Below are positions 6,343-23,891 of a DNA stretch of 24,098 nt, piece by piece. The notes under the pieces were generated by a model. The model worked only from the letters and a program-made list of their open reading frames with translations. It was not told where the DNA came from and searched no databases. Source of the stretch: a virus; the IMG/VR virus record IMGVR_UViG_3300032053_000511, positions 1 through 24,098 of that record; one strand, 5' to 3'. Each line of letters begins with the position of its first letter. Positions within the stretch are counted from its first letter, which is position 1. The position numbers and the translations under genes were made by a program.

Positions 6343-6918
6343 ATGGCTGACCTGGTTGCCGCAGTACGAATCAACAAACCGGACATTCCAGGCGAACTGG
6401 GTGATCTGTACTTTCCCGCGTCTCAAGGTGTAGCCGGCAAGGCATACCGCACCACCGCCACCATCACCCGCCCCAGCAACACCACTGCCTACACCGCTGG
6501 CGACGTTGTTGGAGATACCGGCGGCAGCGCGATCATCAGCCTGACCGCTGCTGGCCCAAGTGCTGGGTTTGTGATCATCCAGAGCGTCTCGCTGGTGTTC
6601 AGTGACAGCGCAGTACCTAGCGGCATGGGTGCGTTCCGGCTGCATCTGTATTCCGCCAGCCCGACTGCCATCGCTGACAACGCCGTCTTTGACTTGGTGA
6701 GCGGCGAGCGGGCCAACTACATGGGCTTCATCGACCTGCCAACACCTGTCGATTTTGGCAGCAGCCTCTACACCCAGACCGATTACCCCGGCAGGCTGAT
6801 CAAGCTGGGCACTGCCAGCACCACGTTGTTTGCTGAACTTGAAACCCGTGGCGCCTACACCCCAGTTAGTGCCAGCACGGTGGCCATCCGCGTGAATCTG
6901 CTGGAGGCTGGCCTGTGA
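6343..6918 (+). CDS. Phage structural protein of the accessory (neck) cassette
   Basis: A 191-aa beta-rich protein. After about 33 residues it shows a pattern I recall from phage structural proteins of unknown role: TAYTAGDVVGDTGG, then GPSAGFVIIQSVSLVFSD, then AFRLHLYSASPTAIADN. No catalytic motif, signal peptide or membrane segment is visible. It lies between the head-tail joiner and the lectin-like spike, and the spike GTG start lies inside its 3' end (GTGA, four bases), so the two are probably made together. A role as adaptor or base for the spike is an inference from that coupling. It could also be a capsid-surface protein. Confidence 0.55.
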   Translation: MADLVAAVRINKPDIPGELGDLYFPASQGVAGKAYRTTATITRPSNTTAYTAGDVVGDTGGSAIISLTAAGPSAGFVIIQSVSLVFSDSAVPSGMGAFRLHLYSASPTAIADNAVFDLVSGERANYMGFIDLPTPVDFGSSLYTQTDYPGRLIKLGTASTTLFAELETRGAYTPVSASTVAIRVNLLEAGL

Positions 6919-8204
6919 GCCGGCTGCTCGTTGCTCAGCGGGCGCTTACGGTCCCTGGCTGGGCTAAGGATGCACTCTGGCGCCGCGCTCAGGCAGTGCC
7001 GTCGCTTGACCTGCGCTTTGCTGACAACAAGAGCCTGGTTGATGCGGTCACTGGCGCGTCACTGGTCACGTTCACCCGCGCCAGCTCTGGCACGTTTGTG
7101 GATAGTGCTGGGGTGTTGCAGACCGCAGCCACCGACGTGCCTCGCTTTGACCACGACCCCACGACCGGCGAAAGCCTGGGGCCGCTGGTGGAGGGGCAGA
7201 GTACGAATCTTGTTCAGCAAAGTGCAGACATCTCAAATGTTTACTGGGTTAAATCAGAAACAACCGTAACTGCCAACGCCATTGCCGCTCCTGATGGCAC
7301 TATGACGGCAGGGAAGTTGGTTGAAAGCACAGCCAACAGTCAACATACTCTGGCTTCTGCCGCCATTACATGGGTTGGAAATACTCAATATACGGTTACC
7401 TTTTACGCTAAAGCAGGTGAGCGGTTTAATTTTGACCTTCTTCTAGGCACTGCCGGTAATTGGGTAAACGCCGAGCGTGTTGCCACTTTTAATGTAAGCG
7501 CCGGCACTCTTCTGCTTACCCCTAATTCGCCAGCAATTGCATCCATTCAAGCAGTAGGCAATGAGTGGTACAGGTGTCGATTGACCGCGACAACAGTAGC
7601 TTCACCGTCTGCTAGTGCTGTATTCATCCGCATGGCGGATAGCACTGGATTGTCTAGCTACCAAGGCATCACTGGGAACGGCATCTACCTCCGGGGCGCC
7701 CAACTAGAAGCCGGCGCATTCCCCACCAGCTACATCCCCACCACCACCGCAACCGCCACCCGCAGTGCTGATGTGGCGGACCTGATCAGCCAAGCAATCG
7801 CCAACAACATCCGCACGCTGTATCTGGAGTTCCGCAGCCCTGCATCTGGCACGCGAGGCGTGGCCAGCTTGAATGACAACACCGCCAACGAACGGGTCAA
7901 CGTGCTCACCAGTGGCACCGACCCACGGCTGATTGTTTTTGATGGCGGCGCGGAGCAGGCCAACGTCAACGGTGGCACCGTGACGGCCAATCAACGCACC
8001 CGCGTGGCAGTGCAAATCAACGCTAACGATTTTGCCATCAGCATTAACGGTGCCGCCGTGGTGACTGACACCAGCGGCACGCTGCCAACCGTTGACCGCC
8101 TGATGCTGGGCCGCACGCAAGCCGGCGAGTATCTCACCGGCACGCTGGCGCGGGTGATCGGATGGGACACTACGCGGCCCGATCTGCAAACGCTGAGCCA
8201 ATAA
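6915..8204 (+). CDS. Lectin-like head or neck spike protein
   Basis: A 429-aa probable surface appendage that may bind host glycans. The GTG start is chosen because it overlaps the upstream stop and has GGAG at 6903-6906. Residues about 51-100 carry VTFTRASSGTFVDSAGVLQ and RFDHDPTTGESLG, a signature seen at the start of many phage spike proteins. Residues about 100-275 look like a carbohydrate-binding jelly roll ending in YLRGAQLEAGAFPTSYIPT. Residues about 290-429 look like a concanavalin A/LamG-type domain, with LYLEFRSP and LARVIGWDTTR. No glycan-degrading motif is apparent. Bases about 7200-7680 are clearly lower in GC than the flanks. The position before the tail genes suggests a head or neck fibre rather than a tail-tip one. 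Confidence 0.7.
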   Translation: MSRLLVAQRALTVPGWAKDALWRRAQAVPSLDLRFADNKSLVDAVTGASLVTFTRASSGTFVDSAGVLQTAATDVPRFDHDPTTGESLGPLVEGQSTNLVQQSADISNVYWVKSETTVTANAIAAPDGTMTAGKLVESTANSQHTLASAAITWVGNTQYTVTFYAKAGERFNFDLLLGTAGNWVNAERVATFNVSAGTLLLTPNSPAIASIQAVGNEWYRCRLTATTVASPSASAVFIRMADSTGLSSYQGITGNGIYLRGAQLEAGAFPTSYIPTTTATATRSADVADLISQAIANNIRTLYLEFRSPASGTRGVASLNDNTANERVNVLTSGTDPRLIVFDGGAEQANVNGGTVTANQRTRVAVQINANDFAISINGAAVVTDTSGTLPTVDRLMLGRTQAGEYLTGTLARVIGWDTTRPDLQTLSQ

Positions 8205-13154: not shown

Positions 13155-13490
13155 ATGGCGACTTTCACCTACACCCCGAGTTTTCAGGCAACCGAAAGCA
13201 GCAAGCCTCGGGCGCGCAAGTTCCAAGCTGGCGACGGCTACGAGCAGCGCGTGCGCTTTGGCCTTAACACGGACCCCAAGGAATGGAGTTTGACCTTTGC
13301 CAACCGCACCGACACCCAACGCGACGACATCACAGCGTTTCTTGATGCCCGCGGTGGTGTGGAGTCATTTGACTGGACCCCACCACGCGGCGGCGCCAGT
13401 AAGTATGTTTGCGAGGAGTGGCAGACTACGCTGAGCAACTGCAACAACAACCAGATCCAAGCCACCTTCCGCGAGGTTTTTGAACCATGA
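13155..13490 (+). CDS. Minor tail protein, lambda gpM-like
   Basis: A 111-aa tail-tip protein. Family features are visible along the whole length: FTYTPSFQATESSKPRARKFQ (core PSFQATESSKPR), GDGYEQRVRFGLN, KEWSLTFANRT, an AFLDARGGVESFDWTPPRG strand turn and a C-terminal ATFREVF. These correspond to the gpM/phage_min_tail pattern, including the Phe-x-Trp-Thr-Pro-Pro turn. Such proteins help join the tape measure and tube to the tip complex. The gene begins three bases after the tape measure stop and its TGA overlaps the ATG of the next gene (ATGA). Confidence 0.88.
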   Translation: MATFTYTPSFQATESSKPRARKFQAGDGYEQRVRFGLNTDPKEWSLTFANRTDTQRDDITAFLDARGGVESFDWTPPRGGASKYVCEEWQTTLSNCNNNQIQATFREVFEP

Positions 13491-14506
13491 GCACGATCAT
13501 TACACGCGCTGTAAAGGGCACACCGCTGACCCATGTAGAGGTTGATGCCAATTTCACCAACCTGAACACGGACAAGCTGGACACTGCTGGCATCGCATTA
13601 GGCAGTGCCGCAAGCCCGACGCTGAAGTTCACCGGCGACACCAACACCGGCATCTATAGCCCAGGTGCAGACCAAGTAGCCATCTCAACTAATGGCACGG
13701 GGCGGTTGTTTGTTGAGTCTGATGGCCGAGTGGGCATAGGTGCTGCAAATACAACCGGCGGCATCAATTTACAGGTGATTGGATCGACTCCTATTTTGCG
13801 AGTAACAGGTACCTCAGCGACCAACCCTAAGCTTGAGCTTGTGTCAGTTGGCGCTACTCTTTGGAGCCAAATTGTCAGCGGTTCAGATGGATCTCTTTCG
13901 TTTAATCGAGATGGCACTGAGCGCATGCGCCTGGACTCCAGTGGCCGATTAGGTCTGGGGACCAGTAGTCCTGTCACAGCTTTGCAAGTCATAGGAATCA
14001 GTACGTTTGGCGATGGCGTCGGCGGCAGGCTGCAAGTCACAACTGGTTCTAATCTTGGCTACATAGACTCCCTAAACAATACCTCTACTCAATGGCAGCC
14101 GTTAATTGAGCGTGGCACAGAAATACAGTTTCACACCAACACTGCCGGTGTTACGCCAGTAGAGAAAATGCGTGTAGATAGCAACGGTTTCGCTAATCAT
14201 ACGGGTGCGATTGGTCGTGGGGCTCCAGTTACAAAGACTGGCAATTTCACGGTTGGCATTGCAGAAAATTGGCTGATTTGCAACGGCACCGCATCCATTA
14301 CCACAACGCTTCCCACTGCAAGTGCTTGGATCGGTCGTGAAATTATGCTGAAGACCAGTGCTGCATTTACAGTCATTTCCGCGTCTTCCAATGTGGTGCC
14401 TCTGGCTGGTGGCGCGGCTGGTACGGCGATCCTTGCGGCCACTGCTGGCAGATACGCGACATTAGTCAGCGATGGAACCAACTGGGTCATCATGCAGGCC
14501 AATTGA
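13487..14506 (+). CDS. Accessory tail fibre protein
   Basis: A 339-aa fibre-like protein. The N-terminus (ITRAVKGTPLTHVEVDANFTNLN, core LTHVEVDANFTNLN) is a common virion-attachment motif in phage fibres. The shaft holds repeats such as GIYSPGADQVAIST, GRLFVESDGRVGIG and ERMRLDSSGRLGLG, the short beta repeats seen in trimeric fibres. The C-terminal part (residues about 250-339) is beta-rich, Ala/Thr-rich and ends VSDGTNWVIMQAN. No intramolecular chaperone (S74) motif is seen. It lies between gpM and gpL, where lambda has no fibre. Bases about 13740-14400 are lower in GC (28 and 26 of 60 in two counted lines) than the flanks, as expected for exchangeable receptor-binding parts. Confidence 0.75.
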   Translation: MSTIITRAVKGTPLTHVEVDANFTNLNTDKLDTAGIALGSAASPTLKFTGDTNTGIYSPGADQVAISTNGTGRLFVESDGRVGIGAANTTGGINLQVIGSTPILRVTGTSATNPKLELVSVGATLWSQIVSGSDGSLSFNRDGTERMRLDSSGRLGLGTSSPVTALQVIGISTFGDGVGGRLQVTTGSNLGYIDSLNNTSTQWQPLIERGTEIQFHTNTAGVTPVEKMRVDSNGFANHTGAIGRGAPVTKTGNFTVGIAENWLICNGTASITTTLPTASAWIGREIMLKTSAAFTVISASSNVVPLAGGAAGTAILAATAGRYATLVSDGTNWVIMQAN

Positions 14507-14558: not shown

Positions 14559-14876
14559 ATGACTACCACCTTCACCTGGAACGTAAGCACACTGGAGCGC
14601 ACCACCGCTGACGGCGCTGTGTTCACCGCCCACTACACCGTGGATGCCAAAGACGGCACCTACAGCGCAGGCGCTTATGGCAGCGTCGGGCTGGAGCAAC
14701 CCGACCCCGAGACAATGATCCCCTACGCCGACCTCACCCCCGAGGTAGTGATTGACTGGGTGCAGGAGAATCTGGGCGGCGATGAGAAGGTGGCTGAAGT
14801 TGAAGCGGCGTTGCAAGCCCAGCTAGACAAGCAACACGCGCCAACCAAAGCCGCTGGTGTGCCCTGGGGTAACTAA
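14559..14876 (+). CDS. DUF7936-like phage protein
   Basis: A 105-aa protein, beta-rich in the first two thirds (TFTWNVSTLERTTADGAVF, then AHYTVDAKDGTYSAGAYGSV, quoted by cores) and helical near the end (VVIDWVQENLGGDEKVAEVE). The ending GVPWGN and the ID-W-V helix are patterns I recall from small proteins of cyanophages and other marine phages (DUF7936). The function is unknown. It follows the accessory fibre after 52 untranslated bases, has GGAG near 14550-14553, and overlaps the next gene by one base. Position suggests a fibre-associated or structural role. Confidence 0.65.
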   Translation: MTTTFTWNVSTLERTTADGAVFTAHYTVDAKDGTYSAGAYGSVGLEQPDPETMIPYADLTPEVVIDWVQENLGGDEKVAEVEAALQAQLDKQHAPTKAAGVPWGN

Positions 14877-16336
14877 TGGCTATTTCCCTTTTGTACGTCG
14901 AACCTGAATACTGGGTTAACGGCTACGCCGAGGGAGACGGCTTTTATCTACTTAACGCAGAACTCCAGAAACCAGCACCAAGCAGCATCATCGAGCTATT
15001 CGAGCTGGAGCTGAACGTCACACAGCACGGCGTAAACGAAACCTATCGCTTCCACGCTGGCGCCAACATGGTCGACAACGGTGACGTGACCTGGGCTGGC
15101 AACTCCTACCTGCGGTTCCCAATCGAAGCGGACGGGTTTGAATACAGCGGCCAAGGCCAGCTACCTCGCCCCAAGCTGCGCGTCAGCAACGTTCTTGGCA
15201 CCATCACGGCGCTGCTGCTGACACTGCCCAACGGCTTAGAAGGCGCAAAGGTAACGCGCATCCGCACCCTGGCGCGATTCATGGACGGGATTAACTTCCC
15301 AGGCAACATCAACCCTTACGGCCCGCCAGACCCCATTGCAGAGTTTCCCCGCGAAATCTACTACGTTGATCGCAAAGTTGTTGAAAACAAAGATGTTGTT
15401 GAGTTTGAACTGGGAGCTATTTTTGACCTAATCGGCGTTCGCGCACCAAGGCGTCAATGCGTTAGCAACGTGTGTCAGTGGAAATACCGCGGCCCCGAGT
15501 GCGGCTACGCCGGCAACGCATACTTCAACACCAATAATCAGCCCGTAGCGACACTGGCGCAAGACGCCTGCGGCAAGCAGCTAAGCAGCTGTGAACTGCG
15601 ATTCGAGCAGCAATACCGCACAGGATCGGTAACAGTTGGCAGCAACATCCTCACGCTTACGCAGCCCAGCTCATTCAGCACTGGCGATCCAGTCACAGGA
15701 TTCGGCTTGCCCGGTAGCACGACTGTCTCAAGCGTAAGCGGCGCCCTAGTAACGCTAAGTCAAAACGCTTTTGCCAGCACAAACGTCGTAACAGGCGGCA
15801 CGATCCAAGGCAACTTCACGCAGATTGTCGTATCAAGCGCCACGGGCATTACCCCCGGCATGGCTGTAGTGGGAAACTACTTGCCCGCCAACTGCCAAGT
15901 AGTCGCGGTTTCCGGCACCACAGTTACACTCAGCTCAACCGTAGACCTTACACAATTCTTTACCGTAGTTGGCTCCGCTACCTCGCTGGTTACGGTTGAC
16001 TTTGCAGTCTACTTCCCTCAAGCTACATCGTTTAGTGTTGGGTGGTTTTTAGCTAGCAGTGTAATGCCCCTTAATAGATACGCTCAGATAACAAATAAAC
16101 GCTCCCGTTCGGTTAAGGCGCCTTCGGGTAGAAATGTATCTGTTTCGCGATACACCATTGCAGATATAAGCCAAAACCAGGGGAACAACGCTGATGCAGC
16201 ATGGACCTTCTACGTTTTTGCCGGCATCCCATCAGCCACCTATACATTCTTTGCAACAGATCAGTCTTACACTTTTAGGGCCAACGCAAACATACCGTTC
16301 GGCTCATTCCCCGGTGTGGGGCAGTACACAGCATGA
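14876..16336 (+). CDS. Minor tail protein, lambda gpL-like, with large insertion
   Basis: A 486-aa tail-tip protein; typical gpL proteins are about 230 aa. Residues 1-246 show the family: [29 protein letters not shown], and a cysteine domain with Cys195, Cys200, Cys209, Cys232 and Cys239. Spacings 200-209-232-239 equal those recalled for the four Fe-S ligands of lambda gpL (173-182-205-212), so a [4Fe-4S] cluster is likely. The family C-terminal motif PFGSFPG appears at 474-480. Between them, residues about 246-470 are an extra beta-rich region with two similar modules and an aromatic segment ([17 protein letters not shown]). The inserted part is lower in GC near 16021-16080. Start overlaps the previous gene; the stop overlaps gpK. 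Confidence 0.88.
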
Positions 16337-17034
16337 CCTGGCAAGACAAGGCACTGGAGCACGCTCAAGCTGAAGACCCCCGCGAGGCGTGTGGCCTACT
16401 CATTGTGCATAAGGGGCGGCACAAGTATTGGCCGTGCCAAAACCTTGCAGCTAGCCCTGATCAATTCTTTCTACTAGACCCTGCCGACTGGGCCGCCGGC
16501 GAGGACGCCGGCGAGATCGTAGCCATTGTGCATAGCCACCCCGTCACGCCGCCAACGCCATCACCAGCAGACCGCGCAGCGTGCGAAACCAGCGGCCTCC
16601 CGTGGCACATCGTCAATCCCAAAACCGGCCAGTGGGGCGAATGCACACCATCTGGTTACAAGGCGCCGCTAATTGGCCGCGAGTGGGTGTGGGGCGTCCA
16701 CGACTGCTGGACCCTCACCCGTGACTGGTACGCTGAGCAGGGCATCACGCTCCGCGATTGGGAGCGCTGCAACAACCCTGACGACTTTCAGCTATCGCCC
16801 TACTTCGACAAGTGCTGGCGCGACACCGGATTCAAAGAACTCAAGGAGGAGGAAGAACTGCATCACGGCGATCTGTTGCTGCTAGCGATCAACAGCACGG
16901 GCCTCAACCACTGCGCCGTCTACCTAGGCCACCAAGAAGTGCTCCACCATATTCAGCATCGCCTAAGTGGACGCGACTTCTATTCCGGCTGGCTCCTAAA
17001 GTGTACGGGTAGGAGGTTGCGTCATGTTGCGTAA
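16333..17034 (+). CDS. Tail assembly protease, lambda gpK-like (JAMM + NlpC/P60)
   Basis: A 233-aa two-domain protein. Residues 1-105 are a JAMM/Mov34 metallopeptidase: Glu18 in PREACG, then His67 and His69 in VHSHP and Asp80 in SPAD, the complete zinc motif with ten residues between His69 and Asp80. Residues about 115-233 are an NlpC/P60 cysteine peptidase: Cys125 in HDCWTL and His193 in LNHCAVYLG, with His205/206 as possible third residues. Both active sites look intact. In siphophages gpK is needed for tail-tip assembly and may cleave peptidoglycan during entry. It overlaps gpL by four bases and gpI by eleven. Confidence 0.92.
17011..17016 (+). promoter_or_regulatory. Shine-Dalgarno AGGAGG for gpI-like gene
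   Basis: A perfect AGGAGG inside the end of the gpK-like gene lies seven bases before the ATG at 17024. It fixes that start although it lies eleven bases inside the upstream gene. Confidence 0.8.
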
Positions 17035-17596
17035 GATCAAGCTGTACGGCAAGCTGGCCAAGTTTGTCGGTCACCGCATCCTCGAAGCCGACGTAGCAAC
17101 CGCCGCCGAGGCCGTCCGCTTCCTGGTTGCGAACTGGCCCGAACTGGAACGCCACATGGCCGACCAGCATTACCGCGTAAGTGTCGGCACCTACGACCTC
17201 GACCTAGAAGAGCTGCACGACCCCGCCGGCCAGCAGGAAATCAAGATCGTGCCAGTGATGGCCGGCGCTGGCGCAACAGCGAGAATTATTGCGGGGATTG
17301 CGCTGGTGGCGCTGGCTTTGTTTGTTCCAATGGTGGCGTTTGGTGTTGCCTTAAACGGTGCGGTGCTTGGCATCGGCGCCAGCCTCGTCCTCGGTGGCGT
17401 CGCCCAGCTACTCACGCCCACGCCAAGAATCCCCACCGGCCCCGACACGCAGAACGACCCACGCAAAAGCTACAGCTTCAGCAGCATCCAAAACACCAGC
17501 CGCCAGGGCGTACCAGTGCCGATCATCTACGGCGAAACCATCGTCGGCAGCGTGGTCATCTCCGCTGGCATCGACACCGTGCAGGTGCAGGCATGA
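17024..17596 (+). CDS. Tail assembly protein, lambda gpI-like
   Basis: A 190-aa protein. Residues 1-75 have a ubiquitin-like beta-grasp pattern ([20 protein letters not shown], then [17 protein letters not shown], cores quoted) and end near [11 protein letters not shown]. Residues about 85-135 are strongly hydrophobic and Gly/Ala-rich ([20 protein letters not shown]), like the hydrophobic stretch of gpI proteins. The C-terminus has a polar segment and [19 protein letters not shown], a strand pattern that in this family contacts gpJ. The gene lies between K and J as in lambda, and its stop overlaps the gpJ start (ATGA). The exact role in tail-tip assembly is not known. Confidence 0.88.
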
Positions 17597-20500
17597 CCAT
17601 CATCGGCGCAGGCGGTAGCGGTGGTGGCAAGGGAGGCGGTGGCGGCGCTGCTCGCACCCCAACCACTGCAACCGATACCCTCAACTCAACTCAGTACGCC
17701 CAGGTCATCGACCTGATTGGCGAAGGTGAGATTGCCGGACTAAAGGACGGCTTCAAAAGCATCTTCCTTGATAACACTCCGCTGCAAAACCCAGACGGCA
17801 GCTTCAACTTTCAAAACGTCACGATCTACACGCGCAATGGCACCCAGAATCAAGATGCCATCCCGTTTGCTGGTGTAATCGAAGATGAGCGCCCAGTCAG
17901 CGTAACCGTCCGCAACGATGGCGCCGTAACTCGCACCATCACCGATTCGCAGACCGAAGCAGTCCGCGTCACGATCACAGTGCCACGCCTGGAGCGCATC
18001 ACCGACAAAGGCGACGTCGTAGGCGAATCGGTACGGCTACAAATCGCCGTCCAGTACAACGGCGGCGGCTTTACCACCCTCATAGACGACACCATCTCAG
18101 GCCGATCAGGCGACCTGTACCAGCGCGATTATCTAGTTGGCATAGCTGGCGCGTTCCCAGTTGATGTTCGCGTTACGCGCATCACACCAGACAGCAACGA
18201 CCTACGGACGGCAAATGAGTTCTCATGGTCTAGCTACACCGAAATCATCTACGCCAGGATGGCTTACCCCAACAGCGCACTGGTCGGCATCCGTATCGAC
18301 GCCGAGCAGTTCAACAACATCCCCAGCCGCAGTTACCGAGTACGCGGCATCAAGGTAGCCGTACCCAGCAACGCAACCGTTGATCAAACCAATGGCCGCA
18401 TCACATATGCAGGCGTTTGGAATGGCACGTTCGGCGCGGCGCAGTGGACTAGCGACCCAGCTTGGATCTTGTGGGACTTGCTTACCAGCGCCAAGTACGG
18501 CTTTGGTGAGCACATCACCGCCGCAAGTCTAGACAAGTTTGCATTTTTCGCTGCATCGCAGTACGCTTCCCAGCTGGTGCTGGATGGCTTTGGCGGCTAC
18601 GAGCCTCGCTTCTCCTGCAACACCAACATCCAAACGCAGGAAGACGCATACAAGCTAATTAACGACATGTGCAGCGTGTTTCGCGTGATGCCCTATTGGG
18701 GCCTCGGCTCGCTGACTGTCTCGCAAGATAAACCAGCAGATCCCGCTTACCTATTTACACAGGCAAACGTCACCGAGGACGGCTTTAGCTACAGCAACAG
18801 TAGCCTCAAGACGCGCCCCAATGTCGCCGTTGTCAGCTACCTCGACCTAGAACTACGCGACACCGTATTTGAAGTAGTAGAGGACGCTGAAAACATCGCC
18901 AAATACGGCGTCATTAAAACCGAGATCAGCGCCTTTGCTTGCACAAGTCGCGGCCAGGCACGGCGCCTTGGCGAGTTTATTATCTACTCCGAACGCTACG
19001 AAAACGAAACCATAACATTTACAGCCAGCCTTGATGCCGGTGTTGTAGTACGGCCAGGACAGGTCATTGAGGTGGCCGATCCAGTCAAGGCTGGCGCGAG
19101 ACGCGGCGGTCGCATTACTGCTGCAACCACAACGGCGATCACGGTAGATGACGCCACCGGCCTGATAGCATCAGGCGCTCAACTGTCGGCCATCTTGCCC
19201 GACGGCACCGTTGAGAAACGCGCCATCGCCTCCATCGCCGGCAATGTCATAACAGTATCGACAGCTTTTACCACTGCCCCAAGCGCAAACAGCGTTTGGA
19301 TTTACGAAACTAGCAATATCCAGCCCTCAACGTGGCGCGTATTAGCCATCCAAGAGCAGGACACGGCAACCTACGCCATCAGCGCGCTCTCATATAACGC
19401 CAGCAAGTACGACTACATCGAGCGCGACCAACCACTACAGCAGCGCGACATCACCGACCTCAACATTATCCCCGAAGCGCCAACCAATTTAACCGCAACA
19501 GAGGTACTATACGACGGCGGCGGGATTGCTAAGAGCAAGCTAACTATTAACTGGCAGCCAGTGCTAGCCATCAAAGACTACAGGATTCGATGGCGCTACG
19601 GCTCCGGCAACTGGAACATATCTAATGTCACGCGGTTTGACTTTGAAATCCTCGACACCTCGCCTGGTGTTTACACAATCGAGGTGTACTCAATTGGCAC
19701 AAACTTAAGAGCATCGCTGCAGCCTGCGCTACTTACATTCCAAGCATTTGGCAAGACCGCACCGCCGGCAGATGTACTAGGCGTAAGCATCCTTGCAATT
19801 GACGAGGCAAGCGCCATCATCAGCTGGGATCGTGCCACTGACCTCGACGTGTTGTTAGGCGGCAAGGTGCTGATCCGGCACAACGTTGAACTTGTTACCC
19901 CTGCATGGGAAGAATCACAAGAGATTGTCCCAGCAGCAGCAGGCAGCCAGACCCAAAAGCAAGTGCCCTTGCTTGAAGGCAGCTACCTATTGAAGTTTGA
20001 AGATGACTTCGGCAACCGCTCTGTAAATGCCACCGCAATAGTAGTAGACCTACCCACACCACAGCCACGCTTTTTGGTGCAGGCATACGCAGAGGACCAA
20101 GAGTCGCCGCCATTTAGTGGCAATGTCACAGGGATGTACTACAACTTTGACCTAGACGGACTTGTTATCGACTCGGGGCAACTTATAGATGACATGGCGA
20201 CCGATGGCAACTTTGATGCGCTTCCGTCTATTGACGTTACCGGAGGTATCAACCCTGCCGGCGAATACAAGTTTGGTAGCTCATGGGATATGGGCAGCGT
20301 CTTTGACGTAAATATCAGACGGCGTTTTGTGGCGCGTTCGATTCTACCTGGCCAGCTATTCGACGACAACACGCTGCTAATTGACGAGTGGCCGGAAATC
20401 GACGAAGACAACCTTGACCGGGTAAACGCCGAGATGTACGTTCGCACCACCAATGACGACCCCGCTGGCACGCCCGTCTACGGCGACTGGAATCAGTTTG

Positions 20501-20853
20501 CTAACGCCATCGTGCGCGGCAGAGGTTTTCAGTTCAAAACCATCGCCACATCAGGCGACCCTTCAATAAACATCCTGATCGACGAGCTTGGTGTGGAGAT
20601 GGAGCTGCAGTTACGCACTGAGCAATCAGCAGTGCTCACTAGCGGCGCGAGCGCCTACGCCGTCACCTTTACCGATGCCTTCTACCAGGCCCCCAACATC
20701 GGCATTACGGCTAACAACATGGCCACTGGTGACTTCTTCATAATCACCGCAGTGACGCGCCTTGGCTTTACGGTAGAATTTAGGAACAGTGCCGGCACAG
20801 CCGTGAACAGACAGTTCAGCTACACTGCCGTTGGCTACGGCAAGGAGATTTAA
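17593..20853 (+). CDS. Central tail tip / host specificity protein, lambda gpJ-like
   Basis: A 1086-aa protein; lambda gpJ has 1132. It forms the tail-tip hub and its C-terminus usually meets the receptor. The glycine-rich start (IIGAGGSGGGKGGGGG) precedes the hub region, with YAQVIDLIGEGEIAGL and YRVRGIKVAVPSN; ILWDLLTSAKYGFG near 295-308 is highly characteristic. Residues about 470-580 carry a beta insert common in the family (GRITAATTTAITVDD). Two fibronectin III-like domains lie at about 628-705 and 708-800. The C-terminal third is acidic and Asn/Asp-rich, ending with a beta domain from about residue 1010 (LTSGASAYAVTFTDAFY). That end is the likely host-range determinant. No enzymatic motif was found. 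Confidence 0.93.
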   Translation: MTIIGAGGSGGGKGGGGGAARTPTTATDTLNSTQYAQVIDLIGEGEIAGLKDGFKSIFLDNTPLQNPDGSFNFQNVTIYTRNGTQNQDAIPFAGVIEDERPVSVTVRNDGAVTRTITDSQTEAVRVTITVPRLERITDKGDVVGESVRLQIAVQYNGGGFTTLIDDTISGRSGDLYQRDYLVGIAGAFPVDVRVTRITPDSNDLRTANEFSWSSYTEIIYARMAYPNSALVGIRIDAEQFNNIPSRSYRVRGIKVAVPSNATVDQTNGRITYAGVWNGTFGAAQWTSDPAWILWDLLTSAKYGFGEHITAASLDKFAFFAASQYASQLVLDGFGGYEPRFSCNTNIQTQEDAYKLINDMCSVFRVMPYWGLGSLTVSQDKPADPAYLFTQANVTEDGFSYSNSSLKTRPNVAVVSYLDLELRDTVFEVVEDAENIAKYGVIKTEISAFACTSRGQARRLGEFIIYSERYENETITFTASLDAGVVVRPGQVIEVADPVKAGARRGGRITAATTTAITVDDATGLIASGAQLSAILPDGTVEKRAIASIAGNVITVSTAFTTAPSANSVWIYETSNIQPSTWRVLAIQEQDTATYAISALSYNASKYDYIERDQPLQQRDITDLNIIPEAPTNLTATEVLYDGGGIAKSKLTINWQPVLAIKDYRIRWRYGSGNWNISNVTRFDFEILDTSPGVYTIEVYSIGTNLRASLQPALLTFQAFGKTAPPADVLGVSILAIDEASAIISWDRATDLDVLLGGKVLIRHNVELVTPAWEESQEIVPAAAGSQTQKQVPLLEGSYLLKFEDDFGNRSVNATAIVVDLPTPQPRFLVQAYAEDQESPPFSGNVTGMYYNFDLDGLVIDSGQLIDDMATDGNFDALPSIDVTGGINPAGEYKFGSSWDMGSVFDVNIRRRFVARSILPGQLFDDNTLLIDEWPEIDEDNLDRVNAEMYVRTTNDDPAGTPVYGDWNQFANAIVRGRGFQFKTIATSGDPSINILIDELGVEMELQLRTEQSAVLTSGASAYAVTFTDAFYQAPNIGITANNMATGDFFIITAVTRLGFTVEFRNSAGTAVNRQFSYTAVGYGKEI
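20842..20847 (+). promoter_or_regulatory. Shine-Dalgarno AAGGAG for the GTG-started tail fibre
   Basis: AAGGAG within the last codons of the gpJ-like gene lies nine bases before the GTG at 20857. Together with the conserved-looking N-terminus, it supports the GTG start. Confidence 0.75.
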
Positions 20854-20856
20854 GCA

Positions 20857-21810
20857 GTGGCACAACACGACTACATTATTGCCAACCAGTCAGGCGCTGC
20901 CTTCCGCTCTGACCTGAACAACGGCTTGGCTGCCATCGTCAGCCAGAACAGCGGCGCCGCTCAACCCAGCACTACATACGCCTACCAGTGGTGGGCCGAC
21001 ACCACCACCGGACTGCTGAAGATCCGCAACTCCGGCAACAACGCTTGGATCACCGTCGGCACCTTGGCTAACTCCAACCTTGGGCTGGCACCGCTGGCAA
21101 GCCCCACGTTTACAGGCAACGTAACGATTAACGCCCAAGGCGATTTGCGCCTTGCCGACTCGGACAGCAGCAACTGGGTAGCACTCCAGGCGCCGGCAAC
21201 AGTTGCCTCGAACTTAACGCTTACAGTCCCAGCCGCTGACGGCACCGCCGATCAGTCGCTGGTCACTGACGGAGCTGGTGCGCTCAGCTTTGCCAGCCGC
21301 AGCCGACTGGTGCGCGGCACTGCTGTCGCCACAACCAGCGGCACCAGCATTGACTTCACCAGTATTCCAAGTTGGGCTAAGCGAATCACTGTCAATCTGG
21401 TTGGTACCAGCACTAACGGAACAAGTGCTGAAATAATCCGCATTGGCGACTCTAGCGGCTTTTCTGCTAGTTCCTATGTTGGCACAACGTCTTTTCTTGT
21501 TGGTGGTGTGAGCCCCATTTGTGGAGTTAACACATTATCTGATGGCTTTAACTTAATGGGACAAACAGCATCAACGCCAACCAATAATTTAACTGCGAAA
21601 GTTGTAATTGAGCTGGTTGCGGCATTTGGTGGCATTAATTACTGGGTAGCCAGTGGAGTCATTTCCAGAATTGATGGCGGCAATGTTTATCAAAAGTTTG
21701 TCGCTGGCTATAAAGGGCTAACCGGCACGTTGGATCGTGTTCAGCTAACAACTATTACCGGCACAGCGTCGTTTGATGGCGGTTCTGTCAACATCATCTA
21801 CGAGGGCTAA
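20857..21810 (+). CDS. Tail fibre protein, terminal
   Basis: A 317-aa fibre. Residues 1-70 (HDYIIANQSGAAFRSDLNNG, then TTYAYQWWADTTTGLLKIRN, cores quoted) are an N-terminal module I recall from many fibres of cyanophages and other marine phages; it probably docks the fibre to the tip. Residues about 78-150 have shaft-like repeats (ASPTFTGNVTINAQG, LTLTVPAADGTADQSLVTDG). Residues about 150-317 form a beta-rich C-terminal domain starting near RLVRGTAVATTSGTSIDFT, likely globular and receptor-binding. GTG start with a strong ribosome binding site. The C-terminal coding region is markedly lower in GC (23 of 60 in one counted line) than gpJ. It directly follows gpJ. Confidence 0.8.
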   Translation: MAQHDYIIANQSGAAFRSDLNNGLAAIVSQNSGAAQPSTTYAYQWWADTTTGLLKIRNSGNNAWITVGTLANSNLGLAPLASPTFTGNVTINAQGDLRLADSDSSNWVALQAPATVASNLTLTVPAADGTADQSLVTDGAGALSFASRSRLVRGTAVATTSGTSIDFTSIPSWAKRITVNLVGTSTNGTSAEIIRIGDSSGFSASSYVGTTSFLVGGVSPICGVNTLSDGFNLMGQTASTPTNNLTAKVVIELVAAFGGINYWVASGVISRIDGGNVYQKFVAGYKGLTGTLDRVQLTTITGTASFDGGSVNIIYEG

Positions 21811-22558: not shown

Positions 22559-22836
22559 CCAACATCTTCCGCACCATCGCACTAGAGCTAGGCCGCGTAG
22601 CGCTCCGGCTTGCTGTGGATCGTGCGCTGCAGAAAGAGCTGCCGGCGATCTTTGCCAAGCTTGACCTTGAGCTGCCTTACATGTTGGCAAGCAGAGCCAA
22701 GCCGTTGCAGGTCCAGGCTGCTGTCACAGAGGCGATTGAGGAGAAGATTGGCGGCATTGCTACTGCCACCCAGGTAGCCGCTGTGCTGAGCCTCTATGAC
22801 CCCGTTAAGGCTGCACTCAAAAACATCCGCCGATGA
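22555..22836 (+). CDS. Unrecognised helical protein in the lysis block
   Basis: A 93-aa protein I do not recognise. It appears all-helical, with no clear signal peptide; the most hydrophobic parts, IFRTIALELGRVALRLAVDR (residues 4-23) and ATATQVAAVLSLY, look amphipathic rather than membrane-spanning. The C-terminus is basic (KAALKNIRR). It lies between the putative holin and the endolysin with four-base overlaps (ATGA) at both ends, so it is surely expressed with them. It could regulate lysis (an antiholin-like role) or be an unrelated late protein; nothing in the sequence decides this. Confidence 0.6.
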   Translation: MTNIFRTIALELGRVALRLAVDRALQKELPAIFAKLDLELPYMLASRAKPLQVQAAVTEAIEEKIGGIATATQVAAVLSLYDPVKAALKNIRR

Positions 22837-23891
22837 CTTACGCCACCGTCCGATCTGCCGCTGAGCACATCGCCAGGGCTGGCAAGATCACGCCGCATCA
22901 GCTGGCGGCATTGACTGCGCACGATGAGTCACTCACCGATGCGCAGCGCCAAGGGTTTACCGAGCTGTGGAGGGCGGCGGGGAGTCCGGCGGCGCAGCAG
23001 TCTGATCCGATCTATCTTGCACCGCAAAAGATCATCAAGGAGTTTGAAGGCTGCAAGCTCGCTGCCTACAAATGCCCAGCAGGGATCTGGACGATTGGCT
23101 GGGGCGCCACCATCGTCAACGGTGCAGCAGTGCGCGATGGCGACAAGATCAGCCAAGACCTAGCCGATGAACTGCTGCGCGCTGAGATTCTGCGCATTGC
23201 TGCTGAGCTGCACCAGATAATTCCAGCAAGCGCGAAATGGGGCGGCAATCAGCAGGCGGCCATCATCAGCTGGGCCTACAACGTGGGCCTGGGTGCTGCG
23301 AAAGACAGCACGCTGCGGAAGCGCATCAACGCTGGTGAAGGTGGAACCACGGTGATTCCGCAAGAGCTGCCCAAGTGGGACAAGGCAAACGGACAGCCGC
23401 TTGCCGGCCTGACACGTCGCCGCGCTGCAGAGGTGGCCCTATTCATCGGTGCTGCTATTCCGCCGCCGCCAGCACGCTTCACGCCATCGTCACCGCTGAG
23501 CACCAAGGTCACACCGCACATCACCTACGGCGAGCTGTGCCTTGGGGAAGAGCGTCGCCGCTTCATCAACCAGGCTCAGTGCGACATCGCCACTGAACTC
23601 TGCGCGTTTATTGAAAAAGCCAGAGCACAATTCGGTAACCAGCCAATCATCATCACGAGCGCTCATCGGCCAAAAGCAGTGAACGATGCTGTTGGTGGTG
23701 CCACAGACAGCGAGCATCTCTACAAGCCAGGAAGCGGCGCCATCGACTGGTATATCAAAGATGTCTCGGTCAAATTGGTGCAGGACTGGTGCGATCTCAA
23801 CTGGCCTTTCTCGCTTGGCTACGGTGCGCCGAAGGGGTTTGTCCATCTAGGCATTCGCGCTGGCCGTCCTCGCGTGCGCTGGGATTACTGA
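22833..23891 (+). CDS. Bifunctional endolysin: GH24 muramidase + M15 peptidase
   Basis: A 352-aa wall-degrading enzyme. Residues 1-55 are a helical domain of unknown role (ITPHQLAALTAHDESLTDAQ). Residues about 60-210 are a GH24 lysozyme with the E-x8-C-x5-T triad Glu72, Cys81, Thr87, in which Cys replaces the Asp of T4 lysozyme, as in P1-type enzymes. Residues 211-240 are a Pro/Ser linker. Residues about 245-352 are an M15-type metallopeptidase with Arg279 (SAHRP), His295 (SEH), Asp305 and His338 (FVHLG) as probable zinc or substrate ligands. There is no signal peptide or signal-anchor, so export should depend on a holin. The His-Asp spacing is ten rather than the common seven. Confidence 0.92.
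   Translation: MTYATVRSAAEHIARAGKITPHQLAALTAHDESLTDAQRQGFTELWRAAGSPAAQQSDPIYLAPQKIIKEFEGCKLAAYKCPAGIWTIGWGATIVNGAAVRDGDKISQDLADELLRAEILRIAAELHQIIPASAKWGGNQQAAIISWAYNVGLGAAKDSTLRKRINAGEGGTTVIPQELPKWDKANGQPLAGLTRRRAAEVALFIGAAIPPPPARFTPSSPLSTKVTPHITYGELCLGEERRRFINQAQCDIATELCAFIEKARAQFGNQPIIITSAHRPKAVNDAVGGATDSEHLYKPGSGAIDWYIKDVSVKLVQDWCDLNWPFSLGYGAPKGFVHLGIRAGRPRVRWDY

Follow-up and report, generated by a model that had tools for sequence, protein, structure and literature searches.

The closest described systems are the tail tip of phage lambda and the hubs of phages LSH1 and Jersey. Lambda gpL has 232 residues and is encoded ahead of gpK, gpI and gpJ. In its cryo-EM structure the Fe-S cysteines are Cys173, Cys182, Cys205 and Cys212, and the Fe-S domain lies on the outside of the tip, where its role was stated to be open (PMC10721106). 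The C-terminal region of gpL has also been described as a focus of hypervariability, presumably near the cell wall (PMC13243795). According to the accessible part of that report, the same hub region is variable in LSH1 and Jersey and is thought to face the cell wall, a likeness to the gpL studied here. However, LSH1 carries a different single-chain fold in that region and Jersey a truncation, and the accessible part describes no tandem-barrel insert (PMC13243795).

The sequence under study, called the window below, is a metagenomic IMG/VR record of 24,098 bases. It contains a gpL homologue in the gene order gpL-gpK-gpI-gpJ, which is that of lambda. The features of this region are the following.

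14876..16336, forward strand: gpL homologue (Phage_tail_L) with an insert, 486 residues (PF05100, TIGR01600, lambda gpL 8iyk_L).
15029..15610, forward strand: conserved gpL core, residues 52-245, Fe-S domain included (Pfam match).
15473..15592, forward strand: codons of the four putative Fe-S ligand cysteines, C200 at 15473, C209 at 15500, C232 at 15569 and C239 at 15590 (lambda spacing).
16295..16315, forward strand: family C-terminal motif PFGSFPG, residues 474-480 (same motif in plain gpLs).
16333..17034, forward strand: gpK-like protein, JAB and NlpC/P60 (context).
17024..17596, forward strand: gpI-like tail assembly protein (phrog_32, E 3.7e-51).
17593..20853, forward strand: gpJ-like central fibre (context), similar among relatives up to its tip.
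20857..21810, forward strand: fibre-like protein downstream of gpJ, with a conserved N-terminus and a variable remainder.

The window gpL matches PF05100 over residues 52-245 (E 4.6e-55, 186.6 bits against a cut-off of 25) and TIGR01600 with 218.8 bits against a cut-off of 70.75, while a phmmer comparison with lambda gpL (PDB 8iyk chain L) gives E 3.9e-29. Its cysteines are at 195, 200, 209, 232, 239 and 340. Residues 200/209/232/239 are spaced 9/23/7, identical to the lambda set, as a preliminary description of this DNA had stated. We infer, from the cysteines alone, a putative [4Fe-4S] cluster. The core, the cysteine spacing, the position before gpK, gpI and gpJ and the C-terminal motif are all as in lambda. 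The two proteins differ in what lies behind the fourth cysteine: about 20 residues in lambda, and 247 residues, holding three predicted barrels, in the window gpL. In plain gpLs the PFGSFPG-type motif stands 4-22 residues past the motif of the fourth cysteine (Cys4), that is, directly past the Fe-S domain. This usual length and motif placement is not seen here. The PFGSFPG end is intact, as had been noted, and 230 residues separate the end of CELRF (F243) from P474, against about 6 in plain gpLs, giving a net insert of about 225 residues, the size first estimated. Judged by its profile matches, the window gpL is a length variant still within the Phage_tail_L family.

The insert can be divided as follows.

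15611..15799, forward strand: module A, residues 246-308, predicted six-stranded barrel (repeat with B; AlphaFold2).
15800..15973, forward strand: module B, residues 309-366, predicted six-stranded barrel (HHalign, AlphaFold2; module profile 89 bits).
15974..16219, forward strand: module C, residues 367-448, predicted diverged third barrel and hypervariable, probably exchanged cassette (HHalign, AlphaFold2, entropy, recombination).
16085..16168, forward strand: predicted long beta-hairpin of module C, residues 404-431 (AlphaFold2 strands, model residues 166-179 and 182-193).
16220..16294, forward strand: conserved closing segment SATYTF..YTFR, residues 449-473 (common to all insert-bearing gpLs; diverged yet recognisable in L176).

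The preliminary description had seen here two similar modules followed by an aromatic part of lower GC. The repeat is real: HHalign aligns A with B at E 4.6e-8 as a single comparison (25% identity, 59 columns). GC does go down, to 0.49 across residues 366-486. The number two has to be revised, as the aromatic part appears to be a third, diverged copy of the barrel. Module C aligns with B in register at E 6e-4, which is weak taken alone, and L159, a more distant relative, has a clearer third module copy, GIAVGQFIVGPGIPS. AlphaFold2, run on the insert alone with 27 sequences, gives three barrels with a mean pLDDT of 88.8 and a pTM of 0.73. The order of the six strands is the same in A, B and C, and strands four and five of C are lengthened into the hairpin. 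In sequence repeat and predicted fold, the insert consists of a six-stranded barrel of about 60 residues repeated three times in tandem. Since plain gpLs do without the insert and the insert alone is predicted to fold with high confidence, the data support a separate fold, as had been supposed, rather than a part of the gpL core. For full-length gpL with 24 close relatives AlphaFold2 modelled the core poorly (mean pLDDT 50.6), so that core and arm could not be docked.

By sequence, the insert found no Pfam family at E 10, none for any of its 27 members at E 0.1, and no isolate phage at E 1. Solved structures gave chance-level sequence matches (best E 0.26, virus capsid protein VP3), and Foldseek with the insert gave only chance-level hits among solved structures. 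A match to phrog_161 (head closure) at E 0.0048 was judged to be chance. By sequence, phrog_5838 (best E 4e-5) and phrog_6005 (best E 1.8e-6), two families of virion structural proteins, share the module, but their members are long virion proteins of other kinds and not gpL. The module profile also matches a fibre-like protein of L094 with 35 bits. In a comparison with predicted viral structures, structural, lectin-like and fibre proteins of cyanophages and uncultured phages matched best, and a Bordetella phage tail collar/fibre protein superposes on the module over 59 residues with an rmsd of 1.2.

The best structural neighbour is chain 8eci_1 of Arthrobacter phage Bridgette (Z 9.2, 81 aligned residues, rmsd 4.2). 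All other neighbours have Z values in the range where just a common arrangement is indicated, including the Mystique phage tail tube at 7.0 and the tail tip of Chi at 6.6. The FCCH barrel of E1 enzymes has a comparable six-stranded arrangement, with 67 residues aligned at an rmsd of about 2.1 and a Z of about 7.5, a value common among small barrels. It belongs to different proteins with a different function, and by sequence no Pfam family matched the insert. Closer in place is the barrel inserted in lambda gpJ (residues 483-569, matched over 490-564; Z 6.7, rmsd 2.5, 65 aligned), a small barrel of similar kind that also belongs to the tail tip. It is, however, a single copy in HDIV of gpJ, and its likeness to the gpL module is structural and not evidence of common descent. 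In the window gpJ, residues 506-561, where lambda gpJ has this barrel, match the module profile weakly (4.6 bits).

A first scan gave 35 loci in IMG/VR, of which 29 show homology along gpL. Every complete gpL ORF among them has 247 residues past Cys4, except one with 246, and the insert is therefore fixed within the close group. A second scan with the insert as query reached deeper relatives (L063-L065, 51-52% identity), and a scan of genome contigs found one gpL, L072, without it. Because the wide gpL alignment holds no stretch conserved enough for scanning, a sample independent of the insert was drawn with a DNA pattern spanning cysteines three and four (CGKR..SC..RF). It gave at least 120 stretches and 105 complete gpL ORFs. 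Among the matches listed, 99 of the 105 have 17-35 residues past the Cys4 motif, and the other six have 85, 85, 112, 237, 244 and 255. Thus six carry more than 60 extra residues at this place, and three carry a window-type insert; the latter frequency, about 3%, is rough, since the sample is non-random (one pattern, first rows, related records). These three long gpLs (L161, L176 and L159) have modules of the window type and close the insert with a related YTF segment. Both 85-residue gpLs and the partial L107 have a different small beta insert, and L170 yet another. The preliminary description had taken an insert of one length in all gpL homologues of this group as an argument against an added domain; such constancy is found inside the close group and not outside it. 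A single clade of insert-bearing gpLs by core sequence is rejected (p-AU 6.6e-5), and L161 groups with plain-ended gpLs. The phylogeny hence indicates that the insert has moved between gpL lineages or has been lost several times.

Additions to gpL are common in general. At least one extra stretch is present in 69 of the 105 gpLs among the matches listed, at the N-terminus (49, usually about 65 residues), between the second and third Fe-S cysteines (16), in a core loop (8), after Cys4 (6) and elsewhere (4). Judged from these stretches, gpL acts as a mounting platform. The gpL of Synechococcus phage S-CBS4 (AEX56003.1; L039 2965-4362) resembles the window gpL in having about 220 residues added, but they lie between Cys2 and Cys3, and the module profile finds no match there. 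Along with L039, seven other gpLs (L105, L123, L137, L153, L155, L160 and L180) have from 150 to about 700 extra residues at that site; in several these are helical-looking or beta-rich and of unrelated sequence. Near residue 143 a core loop of L003, L006, L010 and others holds short LLLEDG..LLLED repeats, which are absent from the window, and L159 has an LLLED-like stretch elsewhere in its core. In the marine virus AG-345-A17 (MH327491; L038 4974-5966) the core loop carries a stretch that looks like a cupredoxin, HPLRI..YYCSTHGNSMGNTITM, with similarity to a type I copper site. This ORF stops before the Fe-S domain and the four cysteines are missing; it may be a genuine variant or an assembly cut short. 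Hypervariability of the gpL region is already known; the triple-barrel insert there is a new variant, and no report of one was found in the published literature, chiefly openly accessible papers.

Variation within the window-type gpL is concentrated in module C. Over 18 gpLs, the mean column entropy in bits amounts to 0.33 for the core, 0.36 for module A, 0.42 for module B and 0.37 for residues 449-486, but to 1.18 for C and 1.32 for its hairpin. In all parts of gpL pN/pS is below one, mostly higher in C, and gives no support for positive selection, module C included. Synonymous changes far outnumber amino-acid changes, and modules A, B and C are under purifying selection. Third codon positions, as a proxy only for synonymous change, were contrasted at module C in 153 pairs. 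The pair L012/L022 differs by 0.787 inside C against 0.28 outside (p 3e-16); high divergence inside C could by itself partly reflect a faster evolution of the module, but the low value of the pair L002/L017, 0.024 inside C against 0.315 outside (p 1.8e-9), cannot. The trees point the same way. For core, A and B, L006, L007 and L008 form one clade (97/93), while in the tree of module C L008 joins L010, L012 and L013 (97/93). As the third-position divergence jumps at C and the trees conflict, the best reading of module C is a cassette that is swapped by recombination while its flanks stay conserved. As another source of the variation, a diversity-generating retroelement was weighed and set aside, because synonymous and amino-acid divergence jump together at C in several pairs, which fits the exchange of a whole segment.

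The gpJ of 14 relatives with a full gpJ is 72-96% identical over the whole length and 68-96% in the last 306 residues. In the fibre protein that follows gpJ, the first 70-97 residues are conserved and the rest is exchanged or strongly diverged in most relatives. Two variable elements are therefore seen at the tip, module C of gpL and the fibre after gpJ. In 11 phages the types of the two showed no co-variation (r about 0).

We consider that the gpL insert is most likely a surface-displayed, exchangeable tip module that contacts the host surface, on the grounds of the variation pattern of module C and of the other proteins in which the module is found. The window gpL is a hub protein with an additional arm, rare in the family, placed where plain gpLs have a short loop from the fourth Fe-S cysteine to PFGSFPG. 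The arm is predicted to consist of three tandem six-stranded beta-barrels, of a type that fibre and virion proteins of phages also contain. If each tip has three copies of gpL, as in lambda, three arms would project from the outside of the cone. The third barrel, including the long hairpin, could then touch variable molecules of the host surface, probably glycans, next to a conserved gpJ and an exchangeable fibre. The first description had suggested an added surface receptor-binding or adhesion domain. The separately folded addition agrees with the predictions, and module C, which compared with other parts of the virion is hypervariable and exchanged, behaves as a host-contact part would. Taken as a whole, an arm that projects from the tip with module C touching the host is the best explanation, and we regard it as probable. 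Against host contact speak the pN/pS of C and the fact that the fibre after gpJ, a more usual receptor-binding candidate, also varies, and does so independently of the module C types.

Small barrels also serve as plain decoration on phage tails. The arm could serve the architecture of the tip without reaching the host, as a collar or brace that steadies the cone of gpL and gpJ or keeps the fibres apart, with C varying as its least constrained part. The similar barrels in tail tubes and tips (lambda gpJ, Chi and Mystique) would fit such a role, and so would a pN/pS below one and the good conservation of modules A and B. Nevertheless, a brace against a conserved gpJ should itself be conserved, and C is the most variable part of gpL, exchanged as a block; we therefore find this role unlikely. 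That the arm docks side fibres, or the fibre after gpJ, seems to us rather improbable. The fibre gene adjoins gpJ and its conserved first residues look like an anchor, but a conserved anchor needs no hypervariable dock, and module C does not follow the distal fibre. Even less can be said for a neutral passenger, acquired without function and drifting under weak constraint: most gpLs among the matches listed live without the insert, but its frame is open and of near-constant length in all complete relatives, all its modules are under purifying selection and it sits in separate gpL lineages. An assembly or frame artefact, which the single metagenomic record and the lack of matches among isolate phages might suggest, is rejected as practically negligible because more than 25 separate contigs carry the insert in frame with intact ends, with synonymous changes far in excess of amino-acid changes.

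If the arm contacts the host, a further step can be imagined, which we offer as a doubtful extension. A main determinant of host range might have shifted from distal gpJ to the exchangeable gpL barrel. Because the barrels are attached immediately after the last ligand of the cluster, binding to the host might put strain on the Fe-S domain and so contribute to triggering the opening of the tip. A variable element on gpL, next to a gpJ conserved to its tip, suggests that predictions of host range for uncultured lambda-like phages should consider gpL besides gpJ and the fibres. Module C, a defined cassette of 82 residues, is open to direct testing.

Some other features of the window were observed. 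Residues 7-22 of gpL (14894-14941) form a peptide missing in the 29 gpL relatives, which matches the start of unrelated proteins of L030-L035, for example an alanine-rich 296-residue protein of L031. Between the tape-measure region and gpL lies a tail-fibre-like ORF (13487-14506) that has only partial matches in 18 related contigs, the majority of them to fibre genes at other places. A 429-residue protein encoded among the head and neck genes (6915-8204) has a lectin-like match (Laminin_G_3) of 24.1 bits, against a Pfam cut-off of 27.6. Finally, a single ORF at 22833-23891 combines a phage lysozyme domain with a peptidase M15 domain.
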